Virus record (IMG/VR): IMGVR_UViG_3300010316_000058
Span: 1-22,478 of that record
Origin: a virus
Reading direction: 5' to 3' (one strand)
DNA length: 22,478 bases
Shown: positions 2,197-7,820 of the stretch, piece by piece
Position numbering within the stretch: the stretch's first letter is position 1
Layout: each line of letters starts with the position of its first letter
Program-made: the position numbers and the translations under genes
Notes under the pieces: generated by a model
The model's database searches: none
Told to the model about the DNA's origin: nothing
What the model saw: the letters and a program-made list of their open reading frames with translations, nothing else

Positions 2197-2523
2197 ATGA
2201 CTAACAATCTTTTGAAGATAATAGAAGAAATGAGAAAGTTTGACCCTCAATTAGAGGCTCAAGCTATATCTGTTTTTTTCTATGTAGCGGATAAAGGCGG
2301 TAAAGACGGTGTGGCTCAACAAGCCATATCAGAGGCTTTAGACATAGCTCAATCAAGTGTTTCAAGAAATTGCTATAAGTTAGCAACTATCAACAGACAC
2401 CGAAAAGTTGGGATAGGTCTATTAGAAAACTTTGAAGACCCAATGGAAAGACGTAGAAAACTTGTGCGTCTTACAGCAAAGGGAAGAAGGGTACACAACA
2501 CCCTTCTTGAATGGGTCAAATAA
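2197..2523 (+). CDS. MarR-like winged helix-turn-helix regulator, 108 aa
   Basis: This is a small DNA-binding protein with a MarR-type winged helix. Residues 30-60 form the helix-turn-helix (VAQQAISEALDIAQSSVSRN, with the recognition helix around QSSVSRNCYKL). The wing ends in RRRKLVRLTAKGRRVHNTLL at about residues 86-105, and L-T-x-K-G-R-x is the usual end of a MarR wing. It is shorter than typical MarR proteins (about 140 aa), lacking part of the dimerisation helices. It sits 21 bases before the integrase gene, so a role in controlling integration or lysogeny is likely but inferred. The dyad at 1781-1831 is a candidate operator. Confidence 0.8.
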   Translation: MTNNLLKIIEEMRKFDPQLEAQAISVFFYVADKGGKDGVAQQAISEALDIAQSSVSRNCYKLATINRHRKVGIGLLENFEDPMERRRKLVRLTAKGRRVHNTLLEWVK

Positions 2524-2544: not shown

Positions 2545-3426
2545 ATGCAACAGACAAAAAATGTCAAGTTGTTGACGGAGATACACCGCAAATTAACACT
2601 TAAAGGTTGGGAAAAGTTGCAATCTAAACGAGCCGAGAAAATAATTGATATGCTTGGTAAGGGAATGCTTGTGACTGAAGTTAACGATACTCACATAGAA
2701 AATCTTGTGGATACGTTGGAGGACAGAGGTTTTGCTCCTGCAACTATTAATCGTTATATGTCCTCAATCTCTAAGATGTTACGTTATGCCAATCAGAGAC
2801 AATCTATTTATCATTTAGATAGAATGCCTCACATACAATGGCAGGACGAAAGTAACAATGGACGAGAAAGATACCTTGAGCCAATAGAAGAAAAAGAAAT
2901 GATTAAATTATTGACCGAGTGGAATATGGTTAATTATTTAGAGTTCTATCTTTTTCTTATGGACACTGGCATGAGGTTAGGCGAAGCGTTATCTATTAAG
3001 AAGCTAATGATACACAATGTAGATGGTCATTATGTTGTTAATTTACCTAAAGAGGTAACTAAAAACAATATGCCCAGAGGTGTACCTTTAACAGAACGTG
3101 CCAAACTAATCGTTGAGAAGTTACTTGAAAAAGCGGTAGGTAGAAACGACCTAGTGTTTTCACATTTAAAATATTGGACGTGTGAGAATACTTGGAGAAG
3201 ACTGAGAAAAGCAATGAACCTTCAAGACGACAAAGAGTTTGTCATTCATTGTTTAAGACACACTTGTGCAACACGTATGGCTCAATCAGGTAAAGTAGAA
3301 CTTCACTTTATTGGTCAAATGTTAGGTCATAAGTCGTGGAAAATGATTAGTAGGTATTCACATTTAATACCTAATAATTTACGAGACGCAGTAAATGTTC
3401 TTAACACTTTTAACAAAGCTAGTTAA
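2545..3426 (+). CDS. int: Tyrosine site-specific recombinase (integrase), 293 aa
   Basis: This enzyme would insert and excise the phage genome by DNA strand exchange through a phosphotyrosine intermediate. An N-terminal SAM-like core-binding domain (about residues 10-95, with ATINRYMSSISKMLRYA) precedes the catalytic domain. All catalytic residues are visible: Arg144 (TGMRLGEAL), Lys173 (TKNNMPRGVPL), His235 and Arg238 (HCLRHT), His262 (LGHKSW) and Tyr271 (SRYSHL). The length is normal for short XerC/D-like phage integrases. GCGGAGG precedes the ATG. The probable attP follows directly downstream, as in other integrating phages. Confidence 0.95.
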   Translation: MQQTKNVKLLTEIHRKLTLKGWEKLQSKRAEKIIDMLGKGMLVTEVNDTHIENLVDTLEDRGFAPATINRYMSSISKMLRYANQRQSIYHLDRMPHIQWQDESNNGRERYLEPIEEKEMIKLLTEWNMVNYLEFYLFLMDTGMRLGEALSIKKLMIHNVDGHYVVNLPKEVTKNNMPRGVPLTERAKLIVEKLLEKAVGRNDLVFSHLKYWTCENTWRRLRKAMNLQDDKEFVIHCLRHTCATRMAQSGKVELHFIGQMLGHKSWKMISRYSHLIPNNLRDAVNVLNTFNKAS

Positions 3427-3435
3427 GGAATAAAG

Positions 3436-3597
3436 GTGATTAGAGGATAGTTGATTAATGATTATAGATTTAACTAATAAAAGCATACTAATTATGTGTG
3501 CATAGATACAATAGGATTTGCAATCCTCGTGTCTTTGCACTCGGTGGATATGTAAATCTTTAATTAGTTAAGTAAACACACAACTATTCTCTATCAC
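3436..3597. other. attP: Probable phage attachment site attP (tRNA-Cys anticodon-arm core with nested inverted arms)
   Basis: This intergenic stretch between int and the RNA polymerase gene is symmetrical. At its centre, 3505-3528 read on the minus strand resembles a tRNA-Cys anticodon arm and variable loop (AGGA, loop TTGCAAA, TCCT, then TTGTATC). The inner arms TTAACTAATAAAAG (3470-3483) and CTTTAATTAGTTAA (3558-3571) are inverted copies with one mismatch. The outer arms (3436-3453 and 3581-3597) are also near-complementary. All three centres fall within about 4 bases, at 3517-3521. Integrase core and arm-type sites are the likely reading. Confidence 0.7.
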
Positions 3598-3656
3598 TTC
3601 AAATAATAAATAGCAAAGGATAGAACCTAAATTGTAGGTCATTCCGCAGTTGCATA

Positions 3657-3676: not shown

Positions 3677-6124
3677 ATGAGAATACTTGAAATAATGCCA
3701 GATTTTCTAAATCAAAAAGAGTTAGAAAAAATAGGTAATGAAAGAGGAAAACATAGGACTAATAAAAGACGTTTGTCTCACATAGAAAGAGAAGACGAAA
3801 GTGTTACGTCCTACGGAAAAGTATTAGTAGCTAATCTTATCAGACCATACGCAGAAGCAATAAATGAATGGGTAGCACAAGCGTCATCTAATGTTCATTC
3901 TAAAACACCCATAGCCCTCCAAAAAATCTCCCAAATAGAAGACCCAAAAATAACTGCTTTAATAGCCTTGAAGCATATTATGAATACTATAACGACTACT
4001 AAAAATTTAACTGCAACTGCAATTAAGTTAGGTGGTAGAATTGAAACTGAAATTAGTCTTAAAAATTTTAAGAACTTAAACCCAGAGTTATATGCAGTAG
4101 TTAAAAAAGATTTAGACAAAAGGTCTTTTAACTATGCCTACAAAAGAAGAAAATACAGAGAAGTTGCCAAGAAAGATGAAGTTGTAAGTTGGGAAGAATG
4201 GTCAACTACCGAAAGACTACACACAGGAATGCAATTAATTAGTTTAATGGTAGAAAGTGTAGGACTTATAGAAATTGGTACTGACCAACATAAGCACAAA
4301 ACCTTTAAAGTTATAAGGCAAACTGCTTTTACTAGAAAATGGATACAAGACAGAAATAGCTTTAATGAGTTATTAAACCCAGAGTATTTACCTATGGTTC
4401 TTGCTCCAAAATCAGTCGTAGACGGACAAGTACAAGGTCATGGGTACTGGACATCAGAAATGCCAGAATTAGACCTTGTTAAGCAACGTGGTAAGAAATT
4501 TACCAATGAGCTAGAAAACCATGACATGCCTGAAGTTACAAGTGCAGTTAATCTAATGCAAAGTACGGCTTATAGGATTAATACCTTTATACTTGGAGTT
4601 ATGCAGAATGCTTGGGATAAGTCTCTTTCAATAGGAGGAATGCCACCCATTGAAAACCTAGACATACCACAAAAACCTTACGATATAGATACCAATAAAG
4701 AAGCTCTATTTGAGTATAAGAAAGCCTGTGTAATTGTACACACAGAGAATAACCGTATGTCATCTAAAAGAATGCTTTATGCTAAAATTATAAATTTGGC
4801 AGAGCAGTTTAAAGAATATGTAACTATGTATTTTCCAATACAGTTAGACTTTAGAGGACGTGCATATTGTGTTCCTGCTTTTCTTAACTATCAATCTATT
4901 AACGGTGCGAAAGCTCTGTTAAATTTTAGTCAAGGTAAAGCAATCACAAAAGAGAACAGAGGTGTATTTTGGCTATCTGTGCATGGAGCAAACATGTGGG
5001 GTAACGACAAAGTATCATTTGAAGATAGAGAAAAATGGACTTATGACAATGCAGATTGGATTAAGGCATGTGCTGAAGACCCTATTGGTAATAGGCAGTG
5101 GGAAGACGCAGACAATGCTTTTCAGTTTTTAGCATTTTGTGATGAATGGAATAGATACACAAAAGAAGGTGATGGATTTATTTCTCATATCCCAGTTAAC
5201 GTAGATGGCAGTTGCAATGGTTTGCAAATTTACAGTTTGTTATTAAAAGACAAAGTTGCAGGGTCATTAGTAAACTGTGTGCCTAATGATGTACCACAAG
5301 ACATCTATGGACTTGTGAAAAATGAAGTAGTTAAAAATGCAGAACAAAAATCTGCTGAAGGAGAAGAGTTAGCTACTAAGTGGTTAGACTACGGTGTTAA
5401 AAGGTCTACTTGTAAAAGACCTGTTATGACGCTTACTTATGGAAGTACAAGATACGCATGTACTGACTTTGTAGTTGAAGACTTAACTAAAAGAAAAGAC
5501 AAAGGAGAAATGCACCCATTTGATGATTTGTTTAAACCATCAACATATTTGTCAAAATTAATTTGGCAATCAATAGGTGAGAACTTAAAATCTGCAAAAG
5601 AAGGAATGAGATATTTGCAGGACATAGCAAAAGTTGTCGCAAAGGAAGGTGTGCCTATACACTGGGTAACTCCAGTAGGTTTTCCTGTTTATCAATATTA
5701 TCCAGAAATGAAAAGTAGAAGGGTAGAGACACATTTGATGGGACAGGTAATCCAATCCACAATAAGAGAAGCTAAACCAGAGACTGACAAAATGAAACAA
5801 CGTAATAGTTGTCCTGCTAACTACGTTCACTCGTTAGATAGTGCCTGTATGATTAGGACGGTTAACATTGCAAGAGAAAAAGGAATAGAAAACTTTTGTA
5901 ATGTGCATGATAGTTTTGCAACCCATGCCTGTGATATAGATAAACTTAATGAAAGTATTAGAGAAGCCTTTGTAAGTATTTTCTCTAAAGATTTACTTTC
6001 TGATTTTAAGGCAAAAGTATCAGAGACGTTGTCAGATGAGGCTATAGCTGAACTACCTGAAAGACCTAAAGATGGTGAGCTAGATTTAGATTTACTACAC
6101 AAATGTAAGTATTTCTTTGCCTAA
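3677..6124 (+). CDS. T7-type single-subunit DNA-directed RNA polymerase, 815 aa
   Basis: This enzyme transcribes the phage middle and late genes from phage-specific promoters. It aligns by eye with T7 RNA polymerase (883 aa). Asp510 lies in VDGSCNGLQ (T7 Asp537), Lys580 and Tyr588 in RSTCKRPVMTLTYGS (T7 Lys631 and Tyr639), and Asp745 in VHDSF (T7 Asp812). LDFRGRAY and the C-terminal YFFA foot are also conserved. The ATG at 3677 has AGGAGA in front and gives the normal N-terminus; an upstream TTG at 3650 lacks a ribosome site. Promoter specificity cannot be read reliably. It follows attP and precedes the SSB gene, the T7 order. Confidence 0.97.
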   Translation: MRILEIMPDFLNQKELEKIGNERGKHRTNKRRLSHIEREDESVTSYGKVLVANLIRPYAEAINEWVAQASSNVHSKTPIALQKISQIEDPKITALIALKHIMNTITTTKNLTATAIKLGGRIETEISLKNFKNLNPELYAVVKKDLDKRSFNYAYKRRKYREVAKKDEVVSWEEWSTTERLHTGMQLISLMVESVGLIEIGTDQHKHKTFKVIRQTAFTRKWIQDRNSFNELLNPEYLPMVLAPKSVVDGQVQGHGYWTSEMPELDLVKQRGKKFTNELENHDMPEVTSAVNLMQSTAYRINTFILGVMQNAWDKSLSIGGMPPIENLDIPQKPYDIDTNKEALFEYKKACVIVHTENNRMSSKRMLYAKIINLAEQFKEYVTMYFPIQLDFRGRAYCVPAFLNYQSINGAKALLNFSQGKAITKENRGVFWLSVHGANMWGNDKVSFEDREKWTYDNADWIKACAEDPIGNRQWEDADNAFQFLAFCDEWNRYTKEGDGFISHIPVNVDGSCNGLQIYSLLLKDKVAGSLVNCVPNDVPQDIYGLVKNEVVKNAEQKSAEGEELATKWLDYGVKRSTCKRPVMTLTYGSTRYACTDFVVEDLTKRKDKGEMHPFDDLFKPSTYLSKLIWQSIGENLKSAKEGMRYLQDIAKVVAKEGVPIHWVTPVGFPVYQYYPEMKSRRVETHLMGQVIQSTIREAKPETDKMKQRNSCPANYVHSLDSACMIRTVNIAREKGIENFCNVHDSFATHACDIDKLNESIREAFVSIFSKDLLSDFKAKVSETLSDEAIAELPERPKDGELDLDLLHKCKYFFA

Positions 6125-7240: not shown

Positions 7241-7667
7241 TAATAGAGAAAGAACAGATTTTATAGTTGTTCACTCAACTAAAACAAAACCAAGTGAAAA
7301 TTTAAACGCAAAGGATATAACTTTAAAACATGCAAAAGAAGGTTATTTCTACAATGCGTTTCACTTTATAATTAAAAGAGATGGGACTGTAGAAACTGGA
7401 CGTAAAGAAGAAATGTCTGGTGCAATACTACCTATCAATCAACCTTTAATTACTAACAAAAATTCTATCGCAATAGGTCTCGTAGGAGGTCTATTGGAAG
7501 ATGGTACAGGTCTTGACGTTAACTTCACAATAGAGCAATACATATCTTTACGTGAACTTGTAAAAAGGCTCAAAAAGAAGTATAGCGTTGAGGTAGTGGG
7601 TTGCAGAAATGCAATTAACTCCAAAAAATCGTGTATGTCTTTTGATGTACAGGCGATTGTTGATTGA
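7233..7667 (+). CDS. T7 lysozyme-like N-acetylmuramoyl-L-alanine amidase homologue, probably amidase-inactive, 144 aa
   Basis: T7 gp3.5 cuts the peptidoglycan amide bond and also binds and inhibits T7 RNA polymerase. This homologue keeps the fold signatures FIVVHSTKTKPS, FHFIIKRDGTVE, NSIAIGLVGG and CMSFD. Compared with T7, the Zn ligands His17 and Cys130 are present (His14, Cys134) and Lys128 is present (Lys132). The third Zn ligand, His122, is Asn126, and catalytic Tyr46 is Phe43. Loss of a metal ligand and the catalytic tyrosine predicts no amidase activity, leaving a possible RNA polymerase-regulating role. It overlaps the endonuclease gene by 8 bases and is followed by a terminator. Confidence 0.88.
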   Translation: MNNNRERTDFIVVHSTKTKPSENLNAKDITLKHAKEGYFYNAFHFIIKRDGTVETGRKEEMSGAILPINQPLITNKNSIAIGLVGGLLEDGTGLDVNFTIEQYISLRELVKRLKKKYSVEVVGCRNAINSKKSCMSFDVQAIVD

Positions 7668-7701
7668 GACGCTTCTAGTTAGAAATAGCTAGAGGCGTTT
7701 C
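7666..7701. terminator. Strong hairpin after the lysozyme-like gene
   Basis: A 13-base-pair stem (7666-7678 with 7689-7701, two wobbles) encloses a 10-base loop and starts inside the stop codon of the preceding gene. The plus-strand T tract after it is weak (GTATTTAT). Because it lies between converging genes, it could end both the upstream genes and the minus-strand tRNA transcript. Confidence 0.6.
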
Positions 7702-7746
7702 GTATTTATGGGGTAATGGAGGGAGACTGAAGTTACCTCAACTCTT

Positions 7747-7820
7747 TGGAGGCTTCGCCCAGAATCGAACTGGGATACAAAGATTTGCAATCTTCTGCGT
7801 AACCATTCCGCCACGAAGCC
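7747..7820 (-). tRNA. tRNA-Cys (anticodon GCA), complete, CCA encoded
   Basis: The 74-base minus-strand gene folds as a full cloverleaf. The acceptor stem GGCTTCG/CGAAGCC is perfect, with a D arm closed by GCG/CGC. The anticodon stem GAAGA/TCTTT has loop TTGCAAA (anticodon GCA), with a four-base variable loop and T arm CCCAG/CTGGG with loop TTCGATT. The discriminator base is U, a known identity element for cysteine, and CCA is encoded. It is the only minus-strand gene in the window. Its anticodon arm resembles the putative attP core at 3505-3528, linking it to integration. Confidence 0.95.

Follow-up and report, generated by a model that had tools for sequence, protein, structure and literature searches.

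A probable pelagiphage attachment site in the anticodon arm of tRNA-Cys and a phage-borne tRNA-Cys proposed to replace the interrupted host gene

The stretch of DNA analyzed here (the window; all 22,478 nt of IMG/VR record IMGVR_UViG_3300010316_000058) is, judged by sequence comparison, an HTVC019P-type pelagiphage (Pelagivirus), a virus of SAR11 ocean bacteria. Our main conclusion, to which we assign a probability of about 0.8, is that this temperate T7-like phage has an attachment site (attP) directed at the host tRNA-Cys gene, within its anticodon arm, and that it carries a complete tRNA-Cys that would replace the gene broken by integration. Comparison with related phages provides the attP core, the missing tRNA half, the complete tRNA gene, their strict association and the changes in the anticodon stem.

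Genomic context and core of the attachment site

The region from the integrase gene (int) to the RNA polymerase gene exhibits 78% identity with Pelagibacter phage HTVC019P and 73-77% identity with about ten further pelagiphages. The principal features of the locus are as follows:

2197-2523 (+): MarR-like winged-helix protein, just before int (Pfam HTH_27 9e-5, MarR_2 7e-4)
2545-3426 (+): tyrosine integrase (Int), 293 aa, Xer-sized (PF00589 6e-23)
3513-3528 (-): attP core, 16 bp, the tRNA-Cys anticodon arm GAGGATTGCAAATCCT, an exact match to host-like tRNA-Cys
3677-6124 (+): phage RNA polymerase, right of attP, homologous and annotated in the HTVC019P group
7747-7820 (-): complete tRNA-Cys(GCA), the proposed replacement tRNA (ARAGORN; Rfam 61 bits)

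The region 3436-3597 is very probably the attP of the phage. Its core lies between int and the RNA polymerase gene, centered in nested inverted repeats, and the minus strand from 3528 to 3513 reads as the anticodon arm of tRNA-Cys(GCA), and after a gap of 1-2 nt comes TTGTATC, which matches the variable loop of the host-like tRNA; both elements had been recognized in the initial annotation. The 16 bp are identical to the tRNA-Cys of two host-like IMG contigs (L085 and L088, whose host taxon is putative), and they are conserved among the short-core relatives while the flank decays. HTVC022P, which has the same core and an integrase about 85% identical to that of the window, is reported to integrate at the host tRNA-Cys in a statement of PMC12753301 that cites Zhao 2019. 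The initial annotation had proposed an attP aimed at tRNA-Cys, with sites placed symmetrically on either side, and the comparison with relatives bears this out. It was incomplete, as most relatives have a tRNA half that is absent from the attP of the window, and the complete tRNA-Cys gene had been overlooked. In the region corresponding to this 5' half the window matches at 4 of 26 positions, compared to 25-26 of 26 in most long-type relatives; the core thus comprises the anticodon arm only and is too short for the tRNA to be rebuilt on integration.

Upstream of the RNA polymerase gene (3612-3650) there is also a small hairpin, ACCTAAATTGTAGGT, conserved in the relatives, which is a possible processing or promoter element.

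Distribution of long and short attachment sites

Analysis of the isolates reveals two forms of attP. Eight of them possess the entire tRNA-Cys 5' half at the same place, and in nearly all of these a stretch of 41 bp agrees fully with the host-like gene; the segment present in the long-type relatives corresponds exactly to positions 1-41 of the host-like tRNA-Cys. S35C6, HTVC105P and HTVC109P carry a tRNA-Leu 5' half on the other strand. Among the isolates compared and the window, only HTVC019P and the window have the anticodon arm alone, and no others possess a tRNA gene.

A scan of IMG/VR with Int retrieved 67 loci. Every carrier of a 5' half was without a tRNA gene, and all short-core loci with enough flank had tRNA-Cys on the minus strand, 4.3-4.6 kb after int; a tRNA search of 32 whole records yielded, above the Rfam cut-off, replacement genes only. 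When the Cys group was counted over loci in which more than 4.75 kb of sequence follow int, or in which the tRNA was seen, 29 were long without a tRNA and 14 short with one, and there were no exceptions. A wider scan added distant relatives, including Leu and Phe types: L142-L145 and L147 carry half of a tRNA-Leu or of a tRNA-Phe and are without a tRNA gene, and L149 has a short tRNA-Phe core together with a complete tRNA-Phe. The total comprises 59 loci with enough flank: 42 have a tRNA half and no tRNA gene, and in the other 17 a short core is accompanied by a tRNA gene cognate to it, again with no exceptions.

This distribution bears on a different explanation, namely that the attP in tRNA-Cys is an ordinary one and that the phage keeps its tRNA-Cys for some other use, e.g. 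in translation or counter-defence during lytic growth. Phage tRNAs have often been given such proposed roles; however, the tRNA gene accompanies only the short core and never the long one, its isotype is in every case that of the core, the tRNA-Phe of L149 being one such case, and the Cys-group tRNA has the opposite orientation to the phage genes, which makes this explanation very improbable. We give marginally less credence still to the idea that short-core attPs are decaying relics of non-integrating phages in which the tRNA is incidental. The loss of the 5' half, and of the whole attP in some relatives (L030, L047, L072), would agree with decay, but Int is intact and 80-100% conserved, and the short types retain the core, the arms and their spacing, only the half being decayed.

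The preferred reading, replacement of the host tRNA by the phage copy, also gains from the phylogenetic pattern. On the RNA polymerase tree we count six switches between the two forms, and six of six independent supported pairs agree (sign test p 0.031); the Int tree provides only 3-4 independent pairs and is not significant alone. The short-type L037 and the long-type L038 have an identical Int protein. L070, which groups among long-type phages, possesses tRNA-Cys and an attP half that is partly decayed (15/26 matches), an intermediate that suits a gain of the tRNA first and decay of the half afterwards; this is one of the orders proposed in PMC10865867.

Several other loci depart from the common pattern. 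In L038 (4674-4810) the attP half has three changes (23/26 matches), two of which are expected to make the rebuilt tRNA less stable or less fit. The contig stops short of the position at which a replacement tRNA would lie, and we predict that one is present. The distant L147 and L148 carry, at the attP site after int, the 3' half of tRNA-Phe and not the 5' half, an arrangement indicating that phages can differ in which side of the tRNA they restore. In L030, L047, L072, L079, L080, L150-L153 and L155-L159 RNA polymerase comes directly after int, with no attP at this place; lysogeny may have been lost or the attP may have moved.

The tRNA-Cys carried by the phage

The anticodon stem of the window tRNA-Cys is GAAGA/TCTTT, as opposed to GAGGA/TCCTT in the host-like gene. 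Other phage copies have GTGGA/TCTAC (HTVC019P type), GGAGA/TCTTC (L022) and GTAGA/TCTAT (L070), and in all tRNA-Cys copies of the window's phage type the stem is changed with respect to the host-like form, with pairing kept. The D arm and the anticodon loop are almost unchanged. The tRNA-Phe of L149 also has the stem GTAGA/TCTAT, and attP fragments read GAGGA/TCC at this stem.

The attP and the tRNA-Cys gene of the window are direct repeats 4.2 kb apart, and therefore recombination between them would delete the segment from RNA polymerase through lysozyme; given this risk, it is reasonable to infer that the tRNA gene is protected from Int. The altered anticodon stem plausibly stops Int from recombining the attP with the phage tRNA-Cys. 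In HTVC011P the tRNA-Leu and the attP core share an identical 12 bp, which weakens the idea of protection by the stem; this is not so in HTVC025P. That a carried tRNA gene might act as attB has been raised as a speculation by the authors of PMC10865867.

Alternatively, the altered stems could result from descent from another host or from neutral drift, and not from selection against the phage's own Int, and we regard the chances of this as nearly even. The acceptor and T stems have also changed, in a compensatory manner, most copies share some of the changes and may have a single origin, and the tRNA-Leu of HTVC011P is unaltered within the 12-bp core. On the other hand, every Cys copy of the window's phage type has a changed 29:41 pair, as do the separate tRNA of L070 and the tRNA-Phe of L149, and the attP fragments of many phages keep the GGA/TCC stem.

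No sigma-70-like promoter was found for the window tRNA-Cys. A terminator-like hairpin of 17 pairs is present on the plus strand between lysozyme and tRNA-Cys (7665-7702).

Inverted repeats, arms and the integrase

The core is flanked by three pairs of elements:

3436-3453 (+): left outer arm of attP, GTGATTAGAGGATAGTTG; includes AGGATAGTTG, invariant in 18 diverse attPs; fixed spacing
3470-3483 (+): left inner arm, 14 nt, 93% complementary to 3558-3571; lineage-specific self-complementarity
3498-3509 (+): left innermost repeat, GTGCATAGATAC, adjoining the core; paired in the predicted fold
3529-3540 (+): right innermost repeat, GTGTCTTTGCAC, in the place occupied in most relatives by the remainder of the tRNA-Cys 5' half
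3558-3571 (+): right inner arm, partner of 3470-3483
3581-3597 (+): right outer arm of attP, CAACTATTCTCTATCAC, a conserved block; fixed spacing

The outer and inner arms nested around the anticodon loop are present as originally described, and the innermost pair is an addition to them. The outer-arm match is exact at 3443-3453 and has one mismatch at 3581-3591 (-). The anticodon loop spans 3517-3523 (center 3520), and the centers of the repeats fall at about 3517 and at 3520.5. The outer-arm motif on the left and the arm motif on the right are conserved across the 18 attPs. By arm matching, the outer arm on the 5' side of the tRNA lies 79-80 bp from the center of the core and that on the 3' side 85 bp from it; arm matching mis-registered the left arm in some loci, and the positions of the invariant motif are the safer measure of the spacing. 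This asymmetry is exchanged in the tRNA-Leu phages, whose fragment is inverted. Conserved arm sequences at a fixed distance from the core are what characterizes an attP of the lambda type.

The plus strand of the attP has a predicted fold of -52.7 kcal/mol (z -7.6), and 0 of 200 shuffled sequences folded as well. Folding was carried out for 52 attPs, and among those listed all were better than their shuffles (z -2 to -9), except for L068, in which the right arm is absent (z +0.6). It could accordingly be argued that the nested repeats, lying between int and the RNA polymerase gene, serve mainly as an RNA hairpin, either a T7-like processing site or a sib-like element that integration splits. 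In favor of such a hairpin are the strong folds of nearly all attPs, the absence of a hairpin at the L068 junction, and inner arms that differ in sequence between lineages yet remain self-complementary (permutation p 0.0001). The invariance of the outer arms and their fixed spacing, with an asymmetry that flips with the orientation of the tRNA, are instead as expected of DNA sites, and lead us to favor a recombination site acting at the DNA level. We consider the hairpin an unlikely main role of the repeats, although it could coexist with a role of the arms as DNA sites. An account of the repeats in terms of RNA only was not adopted because the consensus RNA fold of the attPs exhibits little covariation.

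The identity of the protein that binds the arms deserves a comment. The only Pfam matches of Int are PF00589 and a SAM-like core-binding domain, XerD/XerC-type NCBIfam matches are below the cut-off, and the R-HxxR-H-Y set is conserved in Int of 14 relatives. Searches of Pfam and NCBIfam detected no separate N-terminal arm-binding domain in the 293 residues; an AlphaFold model of low confidence (pLDDT 60), used for the order of helices only, has the four-helix core-binding domain starting from the N terminus. The initial suggestion that the integrase itself binds the arms finds no support, as this Xer-sized protein has no detected arm-binding domain and the inner arms vary between lineages. The arm binder may therefore be another protein. 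The product of the MarR-like gene before int, which is annotated as MarR family in the relatives too, is a conjectural partner acting at the arm sites or in directionality.

Search for lysogens and junctions

Neither a genome scan with the Int alignment nor a search of IMG/VR with a pattern for short-core attL revealed a lysogen or a junction of a short-core phage; the single match of the prophage scan was a contig of a pelagiphage that carries half of a tRNA-Phe and had been placed in a MAG. A pattern search for intact host-stem tRNA-Cys returned six loci, none of them beside a pelagiphage RNA polymerase. In L068 (4600-6553) int, the left arm, the core and the tRNA-Cys 5' half are followed by L096-like sequence instead of RNA polymerase. 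The arrangement resembles a tandem insertion of two elements at tRNA-Cys; alternatively, the assembly may be chimeric, joined at the repeat common to both. L096 (IMGVR_UViG_3300025168_007781) itself comprises an element of about 9.1 kb with repeated ends, a 510-aa integrase, its own tRNA-Cys 5' half, a large primase-like protein and a RusA-like gene, and no capsid genes were seen in the whole locus; it looks like an integrative marine satellite that uses the same tRNA-Cys.

Proposed mechanism

By analogy with known systems, Int would recombine the core (3513-3528) with the host tRNA-Cys gene, strand exchange probably taking place in the anticodon loop, and the conserved flanking arms would organize the recombination complex. 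In the long-type phages the 5' half brought by the phage would complete the 3' half of the host gene, and the host tRNA would be rebuilt. In the window, HTVC019P and several other lineages there is no such half, so that integration would split the host tRNA-Cys gene without rebuilding it and the phage copy (7747-7820) would have to supply its function in the lysogen, i.e. tRNA-dependent lysogeny. The compensatory changes in the anticodon stem disrupt its agreement with the core but preserve the fold of the tRNA, and may thus hide it from Int. The integration event of the window phage, expression of the tRNA in lysogens and its protection from Int are what we infer from the comparison. The broader proposition, to which we grant somewhat less than an even chance, is that these phages have switched repeatedly between rebuilding and replacing the host tRNA, with interchangeable integrases and with the tRNA stem recoded against their own Int; the palindrome may also report integration by being split.

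Comparison with known systems

In the attP of phage lambda the core is flanked by conserved arms, and the sib hairpin lies beyond int, from which it is separated by integration. The sequences in the window are different, and no arm-binding domain is detected in its Int; retroregulation of the sib kind at the window attP is a conjecture by analogy. HTVC022P and other members of Pelagivirus share with the window the gene order, the arms, the core and the tRNA-Cys target, but their attP includes the 5' half of 41 bp, and they are without a tRNA gene. The pelagiphages of group III (uv-Fonsiphage, HTVC011P, HTVC025P) have an 11-bp core in a host tRNA and a tRNA-Leu of their own that is said to replace that of the host (PMC6811365). 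In contrast to the window, they use unrelated long integrases, the tRNA is tRNA-Leu(TAG), and the tRNA gene adjoins the attP.

The closest parallel is the tRNA-dependent lysogeny of the mycobacteriophages Fionnbharth, LeBron and Gaia, in which the need for the phage tRNA has been proven (PMC10865867). As in these phages, we find a tyrosine integrase, an attP core within a host tRNA gene that is too short for the tRNA to be rebuilt, a phage tRNA of the same isotype, and close relatives that do rebuild the tRNA. The differences are that the phages considered here are T7-like pelagiphages, that the tRNA is tRNA-Cys (once tRNA-Phe), that the 5' half has been lost rather than the 3' half, that Int has no detected arm-binding domain, that the core stem of the carried tRNA is altered, and that the need for the tRNA, proven there, is here predicted from sequence comparison.

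The strategy as such is therefore already known. To judge from the readable literature, its occurrence in Pelagivirus is new, and it sheds light on how the strategy evolves; also new are the repeated switching within one phage group, the presence of the same Int protein with both forms of attP, the intermediate attP, and the compensatory anticodon-stem changes that may hide the replacement tRNA from Int. Guerrero-Bustamante and Hatfull noted that the relation of tRNA-dependent lysogeny to canonical tRNA-rebuilding integration is unclear and its spread outside actinobacteriophages unknown (PMC10865867). The Pelagiviruses offer a natural series at one target gene, with the tRNA rebuilt, the half partly decayed, or the tRNA replaced, and cultured examples of both kinds (HTVC022P and HTVC019P) make it possible to test in which order the events occurred and whether the tRNA is needed. 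The comparison thereby gives some tRNA genes of abundant ocean viruses a specific role, and it raises the problem of how a replacement tRNA escapes the same integrase, together with a candidate solution.
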